From contig JALHNB010000003.1 in assembly GCA_022843745.1 (NCBI GenBank), positions 62,001-126,000 of the forward strand: a stretch of DNA of 64,000 nucleotides, given 5' to 3'. Origin of the DNA: Anaerolineae bacterium (GTDB lineage Bacteria; Chloroflexota; Anaerolineae; Aggregatilineales; Phototrophicaceae). The position numbers and the translations under genes were made by a program. The first letter of the stretch is position 1, and each line of letters begins with the position of its first letter. Of this stretch, positions 2,511-8,814 are shown piece by piece. The notes under the pieces were generated by a model that saw only the letters and a program-made list of their open reading frames with translations, had not been told where the DNA came from and made no database searches.

Positions 2511-3701
2511 TCACATCTCTGCTTTCATCGTCGCCAATTTATCCACCCGCAGCACAATTCCTGCCGTCAGAATAACCCCACCCATCACCACAAACGCCAG
2601 TGGCATGGATCGAGTCGCCAGCGCCGCATAGGTGGGTGCCATCACCGCGATAAAGATATTCAGAAACATATTGATGAGCGAAAGCACCGTCGCTCGGCTC
2701 CGGCTGGCAATCAGAGAATTCTGATAGGCTGAAAACAGCGGGGATTTCATGTCGTTCGTACCGTACATCAGCGTAATCACAAGCCAGGTTGCAATCGGGC
2801 CGGAAACGGCAGCTAACACCAGATACATAAACCCCGGCAGCAGCGCGATCACCGTAATTCCCCAGCGTGGGCCGAGGATTTGCTCGATGCGATAGGCATA
2901 GCGCTGCGTGAAAGCCGACAGCAGACTCCCCAGCGAGAGCGCTAACCCAATCGCAAAAACATGCACGTCATTTTGATCCAGATAAGGTGGCGCTAACGTC
3001 GTCACCAACGGCCCACCAAACGCCGCCATGAAAACCGAAAGCAGCACGATTCGCCGCAGTTTTCGATTGCCGCGCAGTTCCGCCACGCCATTTCTGAAAA
3101 TCGCCAGTGTGTCCGGCTTCTCGGCCTGCCAGGGTGTTGGCGGTTCGTGCAAAGTCAGGCTGATGAACAGTCCGATGAGCAGCGACATTACTGTCAAAGC
3201 AATCGCAACCGTGACCCGTGCTTCGGCTAGATCACCGATAATCAGGCCACCAACGATAGGAGCGATAAAAAATGCGATCTGCCCGATACTGTTCACCCGC
3301 CCCATCGCACGTTTCATGGTCTCCTCGCGATTTTCCGGCGGCAGACTATCATAGACCAGCGATTCCGTCGCCCCGGAAGCAAACGCGAAACCTATGCCTG
3401 TGAACAGCGCGATCACCAAAAGCGTTGGGTAGCTGCGACTGAAGATAAAAATAAATTCTCCTGTCATCATCAACAGAACCGACATAAAAATCGACCATTT
3501 GCGGCCAATCCGATCTGCGATAACGCCAGTCGGCACCTCGGCCAGGAAAAGGGTAGCGATGACGAGCGACTCGATACTGCTGACCTGCAAAAGGCTCAGG
3601 CCGCGCCCGCGCAAAATCAACGCGTAAGCATGGATATACAGGTGAAAGCGCGTACAGAACGCGATAAACGTGATTTTCGTGATGTTATCAAAACGCTGCA
3701 T
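2511..3701 (-). CDS. MFS transporter, drug-efflux type
   Basis: Twelve-helix major facilitator superfamily transporter of about 396 residues, inner membrane. An N-terminal half with the loop motif GVIADRIGRKW (helix 2-3 loop, the MFS motif A region) and the symmetric C-terminal half are both present. MFS proteins of this size mostly export drugs or small metabolites by proton antiport; the substrate cannot be read. The frame is open to 3719, but the ATG at 3701 is preferred because AGGA sits six bases before it. Upstream is an unusual leader (3702-3977) with a tiny reading frame and two terminators, so expression is probably attenuated. It is convergent with prmA. Confidence 0.85.
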   Translation of the reverse strand: MQRFDNITKITFIAFCTRFHLYIHAYALILRGRGLSLLQVSSIESLVIATLFLAEVPTGVIADRIGRKWSIFMSVLLMMTGEFIFIFSRSYPTLLVIALFTGIGFAFASGATESLVYDSLPPENREETMKRAMGRVNSIGQIAFFIAPIVGGLIIGDLAEARVTVAIALTVMSLLIGLFISLTLHEPPTPWQAEKPDTLAIFRNGVAELRGNRKLRRIVLLSVFMAAFGGPLVTTLAPPYLDQNDVHVFAIGLALSLGSLLSAFTQRYAYRIEQILGPRWGITVIALLPGFMYLVLAAVSGPIATWLVITLMYGTNDMKSPLFSAYQNSLIASRSRATVLSLINMFLNIFIAVMAPTYAALATRSMPLAFVVMGGVILTAGIVLRVDKLATMKAEM

Positions 3702-3733
3702 AGTTCGTCCTGCGGTCATATAAAATAGACGTG

Positions 3734-3762
3734 GTAGGGGCAGGTCTGAGACCTGCCCCTAT
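3734..3762. repeat. GTAGGGGC-type palindrome (copy B)
   Basis: GTAGGGGCAGGTCT followed by AGACCTGCCCCTA, a nearly perfect 13-base inverted repeat with a three-base loop. It lies 33 bases before the chosen MFS start on that gene's transcript, so it would form a stable hairpin in the leader. Confidence 0.75.
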
Positions 3763-3788
3763 GGAAAATTCGGAATTAGACAAGAATC

Positions 3789-3820
3789 AAAAAAACGCGC
3801 CGCAGGTAGCTCTGCGGTGC
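3789..3820 (-). terminator. Second intrinsic terminator in the MFS leader
   Basis: On the minus strand a nine-pair stem (3812-3820 with 3797-3805, core CCGCAG/CTGCGG, one G-U pair) has a six-base loop and is followed, after one base, by seven consecutive T residues (3789-3795). This is a classical terminator placed between the leader reading frame and the MFS gene. Confidence 0.75.
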
Positions 3821-3856
3821 ATTCGATTAGAATAGAATTGTCAAATGATAGACAAT

Positions 3857-3907
3857 GAAAAACGATCCACCTGGGGAGTACCTGGGTTCAGGTTAATTGT
3901 GGATCGT
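3857..3907 (-). terminator. First terminator/attenuator hairpin in the MFS leader
   Basis: A perfect nine-base stem on the minus strand, ACGATCCAC (3907-3899) with GTGGATCGT (3870-3862), is followed by TTTTT (3862-3858). Its loop can form an extra CCTG/CAGG pairing. The 5' arm is also the coding sequence of codons 5-7 of the upstream mini reading frame, so a ribosome there would block the hairpin. Confidence 0.65.
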
Positions 3908-3919
3908 CAGGCCAGCCAT
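3893..3919 (-). CDS. Putative 8-residue leader peptide MAGLTIHN
   Basis: ATG at 3919, eight sense codons (Met-Ala-Gly-Leu-Thr-Ile-His-Asn) and TAA at 3893. A strong ribosome binding site GAGGA (3930-3926) lies six bases before the ATG, which is unlikely by chance in a region with a promoter and terminators. The last codons form the 5' arm of the terminator stem. The likely role is a translated sensor that decides whether transcription continues into the MFS transporter 190 bases downstream. Seen: start, binding site, overlap with the stem. Inferred: regulatory function. It could instead be a chance frame in a small RNA. Confidence 0.5.
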   Translation of the reverse strand: MAGLTIHN

Positions 3920-3983
3920 GTGGAGTCCTCAGAAATAGCATGTTGCAAATAGATTAAAAACAAAAATAACTTGCTTAAAATTC

Positions 3984-4011
3984 ATTATAGCCAACACCGA
4001 TTATCTGTCAA
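3984..4011 (-). promoter_or_regulatory. Consensus promoter for the MFS leader
   Basis: On the minus strand, a perfect TTGACA (4011-4006) and a perfect TATAAT (3989-3984) are separated by 16 bases. Transcription would start near 3977 and run through the leader peptide, the two terminators and the MFS gene. It is divergent from the glucarate dehydratase-like gene, whose start lies only 75 bases away. Confidence 0.75.
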
Positions 4012-4085: not shown

Positions 4086-5372
4086 ATGAAAATTCTTGAA
4101 ATGCACGTAACACCCATCGCCCTCACCGACCCGCCGCTGCTCAATTCCGTCGGCCTGCACCAACCCTATGCGCTGCGCACGATTGTCGAGTTGGTCACGG
4201 ACGATGGTATCTCCGGGCTGGGCGAAATCCCCGGCAGCGCGAAAATTACAGCCCTTCTGGAAGCCGCAAAAGAATTCGTGATTGGCAAAGACCCGTTTCA
4301 ACTGAATGCGCTCTACGCGGCTCTCGACAGCCAATTTCGCTCGGCGGATAAAGATTTTCGCGGGACAAACCCCTGGGATCAACGCCTGTTCGTACATCTT
4401 TTCAGCGCGTTAGAGGTCGCCTGCTACGACATTATGGGCAAGAGTCTGGGTCGTCCGGTGGTGGATTTGCTCGGCGGCGTGTTCCGCGAGCGTGTGCCGT
4501 TTGCCGCCTATCTGTTTTACAAATATAAAGGTGCGGGAGGCGAACTCGGCTTTGAAATCGACCCGACAGCGACAGGCTGGGCAGCGGCGCGGCAGGCTGA
4601 AGCAGTCACGCCGGAGCAACTGGTCGCGCAAGCCAAAGCGATGTGCGAAGAATATGGCTTTCGCTCATTAAAACTCAAAGCGGGTGCGCTCGAACCGGAT
4701 ATTGAAGTGGCAACCATGTTCGCACTGCGTGAGGCTTTTGGCCCGGATACGCCGCTGCGCATTGATCCCAACGCGGTCTGGTCACTGGAAACGGCGATCC
4801 GCTGCGGTGAAAAAATGCGCGGGATTCTGGAATATTATGAAGACCCGGTTCGTGGACAGGACAATATGGCGAAATTGAAGAAGGCTGTCGATATTCCGCT
4901 GGCGACCAACATGTGTACGACTTCGTTTGGCGATCTGCCCAACAGCATCGCCGTGCATTCTGAAGACATCATCCTAGCCGACCATCACTATTGGGGTGGG
5001 TTACGTGCCTGCCAGGAACTTGCCGCCATTTGCCGGACATTCGGGCGCGGGCTTTCAATGCACTCCAACAGCCACGTCGGCATTTCGCTCACGGCGATGG
5101 TGCATCTCGCCGCCGCTACACCGCACCTGACCTACGATCTGGATACCCATTATCCCTGGCAGCCGGAGGAAATTCTGGTCGGCGGTAAAATTCAGTTTGA
5201 GGATGGCACACTTCGAGTCCCGCATGAGCCGGGGCTAGGCATCGAGCTAGACCGCGCGATGCTGGCAAAGCTTCACGCAAATTACATCGCCTGTGGCATC
5301 ACCGAACGCGACGATGCTGGCGAAATGCGCAAGCTCAAGCCGGAATGGAAATCTGAATTAACGCGGTGGTAG
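4086..5372 (+). CDS. gudD: Glucarate dehydratase-like enolase-superfamily enzyme
   Basis: Mg2+-dependent sugar-acid dehydratase; the glucarate dehydratase family converts D-glucarate or L-idarate to 5-keto-4-deoxyglucarate in the cytosol. The 428-residue protein has an N-terminal capping domain and a barrel with all expected residues: KLK (196-198), metal ligands in DPN (227), YYEDP (Glu252) and ATN (Asn275), Asp299 in LADHHYWGG and the catalytic His in HSNSH (326-330). The strings VPFAAYLFYKY and HLTYDLDTHYPWQ are characteristic of this subgroup. The binding site AAAGGAAA precedes the ATG. Two more superfamily members follow at 6371 and 7651, suggesting uptake or breakdown of aldaric or aldonic acids. 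The exact substrate remains uncertain. Confidence 0.85.
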   Translation: MKILEMHVTPIALTDPPLLNSVGLHQPYALRTIVELVTDDGISGLGEIPGSAKITALLEAAKEFVIGKDPFQLNALYAALDSQFRSADKDFRGTNPWDQRLFVHLFSALEVACYDIMGKSLGRPVVDLLGGVFRERVPFAAYLFYKYKGAGGELGFEIDPTATGWAAARQAEAVTPEQLVAQAKAMCEEYGFRSLKLKAGALEPDIEVATMFALREAFGPDTPLRIDPNAVWSLETAIRCGEKMRGILEYYEDPVRGQDNMAKLKKAVDIPLATNMCTTSFGDLPNSIAVHSEDIILADHHYWGGLRACQELAAICRTFGRGLSMHSNSHVGISLTAMVHLAAATPHLTYDLDTHYPWQPEEILVGGKIQFEDGTLRVPHEPGLGIELDRAMLAKLHANYIACGITERDDAGEMRKLKPEWKSELTRW

Positions 5373-5470
5373 TGTTTTCATCGCAAGCCACCGAAAACGC
5401 CGACCAGATACGCGAGATTGATGATCTTCTGCATGAATCAATTTCCGCAGAAAGATAGTCAAACTTCTTA

Positions 5471-5498
5471 CAGGAGCAGCCGTAAAAACCTGCTCCTA
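5471..5498. terminator. Palindrome (copy C), likely bidirectional terminator
   Basis: AGGAGCAG (5472-5479) pairs with CTGCTCCT (5490-5497) around an A-rich loop. It sits between the convergent dehydratase and toxin genes. It resembles the GTAGGGGC palindrome family in design but with a different core. Confidence 0.5.
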
Positions 5499-5514
5499 TA
5501 GTGTTTCCAAGAAA

Positions 5515-5931
5515 TTACCAAACAATCATCACAATCGCCGCCGCCTTAATCAGCGGGTCGGACGAAATCAATGGCGCATTCAATCGCCGCGCGACTCCAG
5601 CGATCACGCGATCATGCATCTCCGGCACAGCGGCATCCTGTTCGAAATTCAGGATATGATTAGGCTCAAGCGGTATAAAGCGTATGAATGGTTTGCTAAT
5701 GATGTCCCCGTATAGCTTGACGAAATCGGGAAACCACTTATTTTTCACATTAGCATAATATAACTCTGCAATCACAATCGCAGAGATAATCAAAATAGTC
5801 TGATTCTGCTCTGCGGCTTGAAAGATCGCTTTTGCCGATTGGCTGAGTTTCTTATCGTTCAGCAAATACCAGATGAGAGCATGGGTATCAACCACATAGA
5901 ACGGCTCAAGATTCGTCGTTATAGAGTTCAT
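5515..5931 (-). CDS. vapC: PIN-domain toxin, VapC family
   Basis: Probable ribonuclease toxin of a type II toxin-antitoxin pair. The 138-residue protein is a single PIN domain with the conserved acidic residues that bind the metal: Asp15 in VVDTHALIWYL, Glu56 in IAELYY, Asp107 in EMHDR and Asp125 in SSDP. VapC toxins usually cut tRNA or rRNA; the target here is unknown. Its start overlaps the end of the upstream gene at 5906-6253 by 26 bases, the usual antitoxin-then-toxin arrangement. The pair sits between the first and second sugar-acid dehydratase genes on the opposite strand, so it probably arrived as an insertion. Confidence 0.85.
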   Translation of the reverse strand: MNSITTNLEPFYVVDTHALIWYLLNDKKLSQSAKAIFQAAEQNQTILIISAIVIAELYYANVKNKWFPDFVKLYGDIISKPFIRFIPLEPNHILNFEQDAAVPEMHDRVIAGVARRLNAPLISSDPLIKAAAIVMIVW

Positions 5932-6253
5932 CTAGCTCTTGTTCCCATTCTGTCGCGATAGCGTGCATCTGAGCGTGAAATTCCTCTTCACTCATTTCCG
6001 GCACATTCGGATTTGCATACTTGCCAAGCAAGCTATCGCCAGCGCGAACCGGGGTCTGGCGCAGAATTTCGGCATCATGTATCAACTCTTCGCGCGTCGA
6101 ATGGCTGGACACGTGTGTTAAATCTGGCTGTGGTATCTCTTGTGCTGTGCGTTCTTGTATCTGTTTCACACGCAGGCGGTAAATCAACAGATTTTGTTGT
6201 TCAGAGTCTAGCTGTTCAGCCAGCTTGACAACGTCTTCGAAAGTTGCATCCAT
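5906..6253 (-). CDS. Putative antitoxin of the VapC pair
   Basis: A 115-residue acidic, mostly helical protein with no recognised DNA-binding fold visible by eye. The start has a short helical stretch (EDVVKLAEQLDSEQQ) and the end is strongly acidic (EWEQELDELYNDES), as in antitoxins that wrap around a PIN toxin. The assignment rests on position: it lies directly upstream of, and overlaps, the vapC-like gene. A TATAAT on the minus strand (about 6286-6291) could drive the pair. The intergenic region with the divergent dehydratase gene is 117 bases. Confidence 0.6.
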   Translation of the reverse strand: MDATFEDVVKLAEQLDSEQQNLLIYRLRVKQIQERTAQEIPQPDLTHVSSHSTREELIHDAEILRQTPVRAGDSLLGKYANPNVPEMSEEEFHAQMHAIATEWEQELDELYNDES

Positions 6254-6331
6254 TACACAGTTCCTCGTTCATTGAACTCATCATTATTATAAGCCAAATC
6301 TTGCTCACCACACGCCGTTTGGTTATCATCC

Positions 6332-6366
6332 CAACCATCAATATTGCATACTCGAAAAGATGGTTG
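6332..6366 (+). promoter_or_regulatory. Hairpin just before the second dehydratase start
   Basis: CAACCATC (6332-6339) pairs perfectly with GATGGTTG (6359-6366), ending four bases before the ATG at 6371. No normal ribosome binding site is visible there, so the stem may limit initiation or bring a distal element close. Confidence 0.35.
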
Positions 6367-6370
6367 ATTC

Positions 6371-7645
6371 ATGAGCGAAAAAAAGCCTTTAGAAGCAAAT
6401 GTTAATACCGCCTCTCGTCCTTCCGACCTCAAAATCACCGATATACGCATCTGTAACCTCAAGGGTCTGCCGATGGATGCCTCGATCCTCCGGCTGGATA
6501 CCAACCAGGGGATCAGTGGCTACGGCGAGGTGCGCGATTGGGCCAGCCCCAGCTATGCGCTGATGCTGAAAAATCGCCTGATCGGTGAGAATCCCTGCAA
6601 CATCGACAAAATTTTCCGCAAAATCAAGCAGTTCGGACACCACGCACGGCAGGCTGGCGGTGTCTGCGGCATCGAAATGGCGCTGTTTGACCTCGCCGGA
6701 AAAGCTTACGGTGTCCCAGCCTATCAGCTTGTGGGCGGCAAATTCCGCGACAAGGTGCTGTGCTACTGCGATACTGACTCGGTTATGGACGGTAAAGGGA
6801 TGGGCGAACGCCTGAAACGGCGAATGGAACGCGGTTTTAAATTCCTGAAAATGGATATCGGCATTGGTCTACTGGAAGGCGTTCCCGGCACCATTTCTTC
6901 CCCGCCGGAAATGCTGGATGTGCGGCACATTATGCACCCATTTACCGGAATCCAGATCACGCAAAAAGGCATTGATTACCTCGTTGAGTACGTCCGGCAG
7001 GTACGCGACATTATCGGTTACGAAGTGCCGCTGGCTGTCGATCATTTCGGGCATATCAATTTGGAATCGTGCATCCGCTTGGGACGCGCACTCGATCCGT
7101 TCACGCTGGCGTGGTACGAAGACATGATCCCCTGGCAGTTCACCGACCAATACGTGCGCCTATCGCAATCTGTCGCGACACCCATCTGCACGGGCGAAGA
7201 TATTTATCTCAAAGAAGGTTTTAAACCGTTCCTCGAAGCACGCGGTGTCGCGGTTATCCATCCTGATCTCGCGACATCCGGCGGCATTATGGAAACCAAG
7301 AAAATTGGCGACCTGGCGCAGGAACATGGCGTGGCGATGGCGATGCACTTCGCGGGTTCGCCCATTTCGTTCCTGGCGAACATCCACTGCGCGGCGGCAA
7401 CCGAGAATTTTTACGTACTCGAAAATCACTCCGTTGACCTTGCCTGGTGGGACGACCTGATTGACGGCATCTCGAAGCCGCTGATTGTCGATGGCTTTGC
7501 GCCAGTGCCAGAAGCGCCGGGGCTTGGATTCGGCGATATTAATGAGGCCGCCATCCGCGAATGTATGGACTCCGGACGCGGCGGATATTTTGACGAGTCA
7601 ACTTTCTGGGATAACGAACGTTCGCATGATCGGCTGTGGAGCTAA
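6371..7645 (+). CDS. Mandelate racemase/enolase-superfamily dehydratase (second)
   Basis: A 424-residue enolase-superfamily member of the mandelate-racemase/sugar-acid dehydratase group. Barrel residues seen: KMD (160-162) in place of KxK, metal ligands Asp224 (VDHFG), Glu250 (WYEDM) and Glu276 (TGEDIY), and a likely catalytic His326 in HFAGSP. A 20-residue N-terminal extension precedes the usual KITDIRI start. It probably dehydrates a sugar acid; the substrate is not readable and gluconate, galactonate or related acids are all possible. The next gene starts five bases after its stop, forming a two-gene operon with a third family member. No usual ribosome binding site is visible; a hairpin abuts the start. 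Confidence 0.8.
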   Translation: MSEKKPLEANVNTASRPSDLKITDIRICNLKGLPMDASILRLDTNQGISGYGEVRDWASPSYALMLKNRLIGENPCNIDKIFRKIKQFGHHARQAGGVCGIEMALFDLAGKAYGVPAYQLVGGKFRDKVLCYCDTDSVMDGKGMGERLKRRMERGFKFLKMDIGIGLLEGVPGTISSPPEMLDVRHIMHPFTGIQITQKGIDYLVEYVRQVRDIIGYEVPLAVDHFGHINLESCIRLGRALDPFTLAWYEDMIPWQFTDQYVRLSQSVATPICTGEDIYLKEGFKPFLEARGVAVIHPDLATSGGIMETKKIGDLAQEHGVAMAMHFAGSPISFLANIHCAAATENFYVLENHSVDLAWWDDLIDGISKPLIVDGFAPVPEAPGLGFGDINEAAIRECMDSGRGGYFDESTFWDNERSHDRLWS

Positions 7646-7650
7646 AAATT

Positions 7651-8814
7651 ATGAAAATTACAGATGTACAGGCTTGTGTGATCGGACGGCAGGAAGCCCA
7701 CAGCGGCGGCAGCGTGTGGACATTTGTGCGTATTTACACCGATGAGGGCATCGTCGGCACAGGAGAATGCAACTCCGGCGGGCCGGGTTATTCCGGTTTT
7801 GCCACGAAAGAAGCAATTATCGCGATGAAGCATCGCCTGATCGGTGAAGACCCTTTTAATATCAACATGATTTACGAAAAGCTGCGGCGCGGTGGGCGCT
7901 ACGGCGGCTCAACCACTGCCCCGCTGATCTTCGCGCTCACAGGCATCGACAACGCGCTCTACGATATTGTCGGCAAAGCCTTGAACGTCCCTGTATACAA
8001 GCTGTTGGGCGGCAAATTCCGCGATAAGATTCGCCTGTATGCCGACTGCCACGCGGGCGAAACCGACGATGCGCAAGCTTACGCCCAAAAAGCGATGGAA
8101 GTGGTCGAAATGGGCTTTAGCGCGGTCAAATTTGATGTGGATAACACGGGTACAGGCAAGCTCGACGACTATAACTGGACAGTCGGCGCAAAGGAAATGA
8201 CGCATGTCATAGGCCTGATTGAAGGCATTCGCGAGGCAGTTGGCTATGAGATTGACCTGGCGATTGACTGTCACGGTCAATTTGACCTGCCCTCTGCCAT
8301 CACATTAGCGAAGGCCGTTGAGCCGCTGCGCCTGCTCTGGCTGGAAGAACCCGTTCCTGCCGAAAATCTGGATGCACTGGCACAAGTTCGCTCCACCAGC
8401 AGCACGGTCATCTGCACAGGCGAGAATCAATACACGCGCTTTGAATTTATCGAGATGTTCGCGAAAAAAGCGGTAGACATTATCATGCCTGATCTCGCCA
8501 AAGCGGGCGGCATCGCGGAAGGCAAGCGCATCGCGGACATCGCCGACGCGCATTATATCCCGATTGCGCCGCATAATGTCTCGTCACCGCTGGGCATGAT
8601 GGCAGCCTGTCATGTGATGGCAGCAGTGCCGAATTTCCTGCTGCTGGAATTCCACGCGCTGGATATTCCCTGGTGGAATGACCTATGCGACGGTGATAAG
8701 CCCTTCGTCGAAAATGGATTCATGACCGTTTCTGAGCGCCCCGGCATCGGCGTGGAACTCAACCCTGCGGCGGCGAAATCGCTGCTGTGGAACGGCGACA
8801 CCTATTTTGATTAG
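7651..8814 (+). CDS. Mandelate racemase/enolase-superfamily dehydratase (third)
   Basis: A 387-residue enolase-superfamily enzyme, closest in pattern to galactonate-type dehydratases. Visible: capping domain with the TGEC loop (37-40), KFD (160-162), metal ligands Asp206 (DCHG), Glu232 (EEP) and Glu258 (TGEN), and His308 in PHNVSSP. The frame is open to a GTG at 7636, but GGAG at 7638-7641 lies nine bases before the ATG at 7651, and MKITDVQ is the standard family start, so 7651 is chosen. It is co-transcribed with the preceding member. Presumably it acts in the same sugar-acid pathway; the substrate is inferred only to the level of the superfamily. Confidence 0.82.
   Translation: MKITDVQACVIGRQEAHSGGSVWTFVRIYTDEGIVGTGECNSGGPGYSGFATKEAIIAMKHRLIGEDPFNINMIYEKLRRGGRYGGSTTAPLIFALTGIDNALYDIVGKALNVPVYKLLGGKFRDKIRLYADCHAGETDDAQAYAQKAMEVVEMGFSAVKFDVDNTGTGKLDDYNWTVGAKEMTHVIGLIEGIREAVGYEIDLAIDCHGQFDLPSAITLAKAVEPLRLLWLEEPVPAENLDALAQVRSTSSTVICTGENQYTRFEFIEMFAKKAVDIIMPDLAKAGGIAEGKRIADIADAHYIPIAPHNVSSPLGMMAACHVMAAVPNFLLLEFHALDIPWWNDLCDGDKPFVENGFMTVSERPGIGVELNPAAAKSLLWNGDTYFD

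Follow-up and report, generated by a model that had tools for sequence, protein, structure and literature searches.

The window, by which we mean the whole 64-kb stretch of DNA that was analyzed, carries on its minus strand an MFS exporter gene that is preceded by a consensus promoter, an eight-codon leader ORF and three hairpins (Table 1). The exporter start codon at 3701 was preferred over that at 3719 in a comparison with the proteins of relatives and is probably the correct one, since those proteins begin near the residue encoded there. A profile of nine orthologues had NorA as its nearest PDB entry (E=8.7e-9), and NCBIfam drug-efflux models matched the exporter below their cut-offs, with no NCBIfam cut-off being reached. 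Among the neighboring genes, two overlapping short ones at 5515-6253 on the minus strand resemble, by eye, a PIN-domain toxin and antitoxin. On the plus strand, three consecutive enolase-superfamily-like genes occupy 4086-8814, the first being closest to glucarate dehydratase, below the cut-off of the model, and the second and third having been judged by eye.

Table 1. Features of the exporter locus and its putative switch region (window coordinates).
Feature	Position	Strand	Evidence or remark
Sigma-70-type promoter TTGACA-16-TATAAT	3984..4011	-	12/12 consensus positions
Leader Shine-Dalgarno (SD) GAGGA	3926..3930	-	sequence
Leader ORF MAGLTIHN plus stop, ATG...TAA	3893..3919	-	MAG-starting mini-ORF in 17/40 orthologue upstream regions
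Strand 1: leader codons 5-7, 5' arm of stem 1, ACGATCCAC	3899..3907	-	
Stem 1 3' arm GTGGATCGT	3862..3870	-	then T5
Strand 2: loop element CAGGTACTC (3884-3876) plus stem 1 3' arm (3870-3862)	3862..3884	-	
Strand 3: terminator 2 5' half plus loop, predicted target of strand 2	3802..3824	-	
Intrinsic terminator 2	3789..3824	-	T7 at 3795-3789
Stem 2 arms CCGCAG and CTGCGG	3817-3812 and 3805-3800	-	
Interspersed palindrome TAGGGGCAGGTCTCAGACCTGCCCCTA, third hairpin, between terminator 2 and exporter	3735..3761	-	
MFS exporter gene	2511..3701	-	Pfam MFS_1 E=1.4e-31

An earlier note on this DNA had listed the promoter, GAGGA with the eight-codon frame behind it, a 9-bp stem whose 5' arm is codons 5-7 and which is followed by T5, and a second stem with T7 ahead of the transporter gene, and each of these elements was recovered here. 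Promoter sites scoring at least 9/12 occurred at a mean of 1.4 in the shuffled 2-kb region, both strands summed. The duplex of GAGGA with an assumed anti-SD tail was calculated at -5.6 kcal/mol. Strand 1 forms 9 Watson-Crick pairs with 3862-3870, and strand 2 is complementary to either strand 1 or strand 3. Relative to dinucleotide shuffles, the folding z was -3.50 for the stem 1 segment, -3.77 for the terminator 2 segment (-18.3 kcal/mol) and -6.22 for the entire 259-nt leader, which includes the third hairpin. It is important to note that a simple terminator scan of the 2-kb region was at chance level (3 found versus 2.8 expected), listing stem 2 and not stem 1, and the anatomy alone is therefore insufficient to settle whether the region is an attenuator. 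The third hairpin is outside the conserved switch: the core of this palindrome was not found between leader and gene at any of the 16 further loci, described below, that carry a leader, and a DNA search of the same genome with the leader as query gave 84 matches (both strands and the query itself counted), nearly all to the palindrome part, so that besides the locus itself only palindrome matches were obtained. A similar GC-rich palindrome follows the exporter stop codon at about 2483-2500.

In order to compare the leader across relatives, upstream DNA was read for all 40 loci of an orthologue set that came from 38 genomes in a 98-genome family search (E<=1e-60; window locus included), the genomes with named records being Anaerolineae, Anaerolineaceae, Anaerolineales, Chloroflexi or Chloroflexota metagenome-assembled genomes. 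A mini-ORF beginning with Met-Ala-Gly (MAG) was present upstream of the gene at 17 of the 40 loci, among which related rows are not independent (L041, L042, L047, L052 and L057 are near relatives); dinucleotide shuffles gave a mean of 0.38 per 40 loci and a maximum of 3 in 200 sets. These leaders are 5 to 9 codons long, lie 94-218 nt from the exporter and have a ribosome-binding site, the SD being weak in L011, L041, L042 and L047. The peptides are MAGLTIHN, MAGTFLHR, MAGTTDRK, MAGTPNIL, MAGKTL, MAGIR (twice), MAGTLNTSK (twice), MAGTLNTLK, MAGTRVNK, MAGILNTTK, MAGTFSTA, MAGTLNTVN, MAGTTVNP, MAGTLHTS and one that starts with GTG, (GTG)AGTR; residue 4 is Thr in 12 of the 17 and Ile, Leu or Lys in the other five. 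The regular expression for MAG builds in identical first two bases of codons 2 and 3, and only the freedom of the wobble bases and a tally of all mini-ORF N-termini are informative for selection. Ala2 is encoded by GCT in 10 leaders, GCA in 5 and GCC in 2, and Gly3 by GGT in 8, GGC in 6 and GGA in 3; wobble bases this free are as expected if it is the peptide, and not the RNA, that is kept at these codons. In the tally over all 40 loci MAG was found 17 times and the runner-up motif 7 times, and among ten chosen loci (nine lying outside the clade described next, plus L012) MAG was found in all ten and the next motif in two. These results argue that the leader peptide sequence is under selection.

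In a quick maximum-likelihood tree of the 40 orthologue proteins and 5 outgroups, which carries a long-branch warning and has 13 of its 42 inner forks open, one clade of 31 rows (SH-aLRT 97) contains all 23 orthologues without a MAG leader. The leader is present in all nine rows outside that clade, and the simplest account is thus an ancestral leader that was lost on later occasions within the one clade. The earlier note had regarded its reading as refuted should leader codons and stem not be conserved in relatives that keep the exporter. Set against that condition, the leader held in the nine rows outside the clade but not in the 23 of 40 loci that lack it, and across the relatives that have it the pairing role of the leader is kept although its sequence is not. 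Several leaderless loci (L040, L046, L048, L049, L059, L061, L064, L073, L074 and L077) look alike upstream when compared by eye: they have in common the end of a different gene and a recurring CCCCATCTCCCCATTTTGATGAGATAGACG-like segment, which is perhaps an operator or promoter element replacing the attenuator.

Spot checks of other resistance genes covered MFS paralogues, ABC-F loci and RrnaAD loci. There was no MAG mini-ORF on the strand of the gene in stretches of ~1 kb at five MFS paralogues of the same genome, nor at five of its ABC-F-profile loci, where two lay on the other strand. A TATAAT-to-MAG pattern gave 3 matches in that genome versus 4 for the reversed-pattern control, none opening a frame that stops within 30 codons. 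At eight RrnaAD loci from relatives (8 of many matches), gene-strand frames occurred only in L183, namely MAGRGLLQT and one with a TTG start. A partial check of distant MFS homologues (E<=1e-40 in 396 genomes of the class, plus others) revealed no matching leader in those with enough upstream DNA: there was none in L107, L108 (= L070), L112 and L113, L165 was read by eye, L065 and L071 had only TTG-start frames running into the gene, and L072 had a 23-codon TTG frame. The upstream DNA of L066 (= L109; 146 nt), L067 (14 nt) and L164 (17 nt) was too short to judge. In L113, a Thermomicrobiales MFS homologue with 35% identity, an upstream frame MGGGTRQTRFS follows GGAGG at 1215-1250 with a GC-rich hairpin downstream, and this frame is a possible distant cousin of the MAG leader.

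The 17 leader-bearing loci were divided by eye into two types, and a subsequent check of T-runs agreed with the division: exactly five loci, designated terminator-type (L009, which is the window locus, L010, L011, L045 and L060), have five or more uninterrupted T between leader and gene, in a run that follows a GC-rich hairpin and amounts to T5 to T7 (T5-T6 in the latter four). The other 12 loci have no T-run longer than 4 in that interval, and in these, designated SD-type, the SD-bearing segment just before the exporter start codon is complementary to the leader ORF, in most cases from codon 3 of the leader onward, clearly in 10 loci and weakly in 2. Under a looser rule (5 of 8 T after the stem) a hairpin was also found in L015, with a broken T tract behind a GC hairpin, and, weakly, in L012, and these two could keep a residual terminator role. 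In a shuffle test of the SD segment, the narrow windows of which were set after the result of a wider test was seen, ten of the 12 SD-type loci had p values of 0.001-0.048, the two weak ones being L051 (0.25) and L062 (0.09), and Fisher's combination of seven of these loci, with each lineage represented once or twice, gave 8e-9. In the earlier, wider test, shuffles were as good in 0-4 of 200 for nine of the 12 loci, and the result was weak in L012, L062 and L078 (38, 28 and 14 of 200, respectively). In 12 of the 17 loci, a group that includes L010 and not L051, the best downstream partner of the leader ORF ended between -1 and 3 nt from the start codon of the exporter, and when 8 leaders were swapped among targets the native target came out on top for 4, in second place for 2, and once each in third and fourth place. 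The two types are not sharply separate, as L010 shows both.

For the window locus, the duplex of strands 1 and 2 (1:2) was calculated at -16.7 (p=0.016) and that of strands 2 and 3 (2:3) at -19.2 kcal/mol (p=0.005), versus -18.3 for the terminator segment. The other four terminator-type loci have comparable 2:3 complementarity, with individual p values of 0.046 to 0.18; the weak single tests were those of L010 (2:3, p=0.18), L060 (2:3, p=0.11) and L011 (1:2, p=0.235), and over all five loci Fisher's combination gave 8e-4 for 1:2 and 7e-4 for 2:3. Leader codons are accordingly one arm of the candidate regulatory stem, with tests at the other loci mostly, and not all, significant. By eye, the other four terminator-type leaders have no T-run directly after stem 1, and we propose that stem 1 acts as the 1:2 stem. 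The complementarity would allow mutually exclusive structures, the outcome of which is a terminator or a sequestered SD. To mimic a ribosome positioned at codon 2, 3 or 4, the RNA was folded again without the part that extends to its leading edge, and the antiterminator became the minimum-energy fold, in place of the terminator, only in L010, masked through codon 3 or 4 and not codon 2. Under all three masks the terminator stayed the minimum-energy fold in L009, L011, L045 and L060, and antitermination in these four loci would therefore have to be kinetic (co-transcriptional). On the tree, terminator-type and SD-type loci interleave, with SD-type L014 being the sister of terminator-type L060 and the fewest changes among the 17 rows being 3. 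As such, a single leader peptide seems to attenuate transcription at some loci and translation at others, and on this quick tree the output has switched at least three times.

The leader, its conservation and its alternative pairings can be read directly from the sequences, and on that basis the attenuation proposed in the earlier note is well supported, the MAG leader being kept in relatives along with its pairing role. We consider it very probable that the window locus is a ribosome-mediated leader-peptide attenuator of the exporter. RNA polymerase would start near 3977 and a ribosome would translate the MAGLTIHN leader. After a normal finish, strand 1 would pair with strand 2 and terminator 2 (3:4) would form, ending transcription ahead of the exporter. 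A ribosome held within the first codons would cover strand 1, and the freed strand 2 would pair with strand 3, letting the polymerase enter the MFS gene. At the majority of orthologues that carry it, the leader is coupled instead to sequestration of the exporter SD, and the same stall would open translation. Most likely, the exporter is turned on when something stalls ribosomes in the MAG frame, the best candidate being a ribosome-targeting inhibitor sensed at Met-Ala-Gly, which we infer the exporter would then remove. The earlier note had also held that the second terminator needs its own release mechanism; under our proposal no separate release is needed, since strand 2, freed by the masking of stem 1, can pair together with its loop element with the 5' half of terminator 2.

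A leader that senses the supply of aminoacyl-tRNA (Ala, Gly or Thr), as an amino-acid attenuator placed before an exporter, would account for the Ala2 and Gly3 common to the 17 leaders, for which they were selected, and for Thr4 in most of them, and yet we judge it improbable. No run of regulatory codons for one amino acid is present in the 17 peptides, Thr4 is replaced in five, release of an exporter by starvation would have the wrong sign, and the protein is nearest the drug antiporter NorA among PDB entries and resembles drug-efflux models, if below their cut-offs. Little credence is due to the view that the leader ORF is not a switch and raises exporter translation by ribosome loading or reinitiation, as has been proposed at bacterial leader ORFs (PMC4833913), because in the 17 loci the leader is complementary to the exporter ribosome-binding region, weakly in some, or lies ahead of a terminator, and its distance from the exporter would be long for reinitiation. 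Equally hard to sustain is the alternative offered in the earlier note, a free-standing small RNA at 3977-3789 unrelated to the exporter: promoter and terminator do bracket a putative transcript of about 190 nt, which the interspersed palindrome separates from the gene, but even divergent genomes keep the MAG frame in front of this one gene, 12 loci have no hairpin with an unbroken T-run and have a frame complementary to the ribosome-binding region (clearly in 10), and Rfam gave no match at gathering score within the window.

Returning to a ribosome stalled in the leader, its sequence constrains what might be sensed. At five residues, the shortest leaders would extend only a little way into the exit tunnel, and whether the ribosome stalls would therefore be settled close to the peptidyl-transferase or decoding centre, in the first codons; the stall would have to fall at or before about codon 4. 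Macrolide leaders are described as carrying MRLR/K-type stretches (PMC4335068). An MRLR/MRLK-type stretch is absent from all 17 leader peptides, and a macrolide-type sensor was rejected on that ground. Stalling by chloramphenicol and linezolid is counteracted by glycine in the P or A site, and MAG, with its neighboring Gly, is thus a poor fit for these two drugs as inducers. Alanine in the E site is reported to favour their action, and bottromycin A2 to pause ribosomes with a Gly codon in the A site (PMC13410324). Bottromycin clusters are described as encoding an MFS exporter gene, botT/btmA (PMC7113386). The early invariant Gly codon and the MFS exporter found here make this a candidate inducer class, although it would not explain the Ala that is common to the leaders. 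We know of no leader peptide that senses bottromycin, and we regard it as a testable lead and draw no conclusion.

We speculate, tentatively and with some doubt, that in Chloroflexota the M-A-G-(T) family, whose leaders can be as small as five codons, uses the first three of them to sense one particular ribosome inhibitor, either bottromycin-like (Gly in the A site) or an antibiotic yet to be discovered, and that outputs have been swapped around this fixed sensor. If so, the MAG sensor could be used as a natural bioreporter of the inhibitor. The proposed attenuator suggests that drug-sensing leader peptides are at work in a largely uncultured phylum; it isolates a minimal three-residue sensor that is directly testable in vitro, and it provides a natural series that holds one sensor constant as control shifts between terminator and ribosome-binding site. 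Identifying the inducer would show what these bacteria are protecting themselves from.

A search limited to one open-access collection of papers found no described leader like the MAG family, no Chloroflexota host and no such swapping of outputs; the mechanism itself is of a known kind, that of mef, erm(K), bmrCD and ermC. The mef(E)/mel attenuator of Streptococcus pneumoniae has the leader MTASMRLR, and erm(K) is described with two adjacent terminators (PMC4335068). These systems resemble the locus described here in having an eight-codon leader near the 5' end, alternative stems and one or more intrinsic terminators, and mef(E) also in having an efflux gene downstream, whereas the leader here begins MAG, is without the MRL(R/K) stretch and belongs to a different phylum. 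In Bacillus subtilis, ribosome-mediated transcriptional attenuation controls the multidrug transporter BmrC/BmrD (PMC4191407), and there too a transporter lies behind such an attenuator, ABC there and MFS here. The comparison extends to translation. In cat-type translational attenuators the leader region controls access to the downstream SD. For ermC, the leader ORF region is likewise described as controlling access to a downstream SD site (PMC13410324). This is the control that we propose for the 12 SD-type orthologues, with the differences that the leader codons here would pair directly with the SD region, and that in the terminator-type orthologues this leader is put to a different output.
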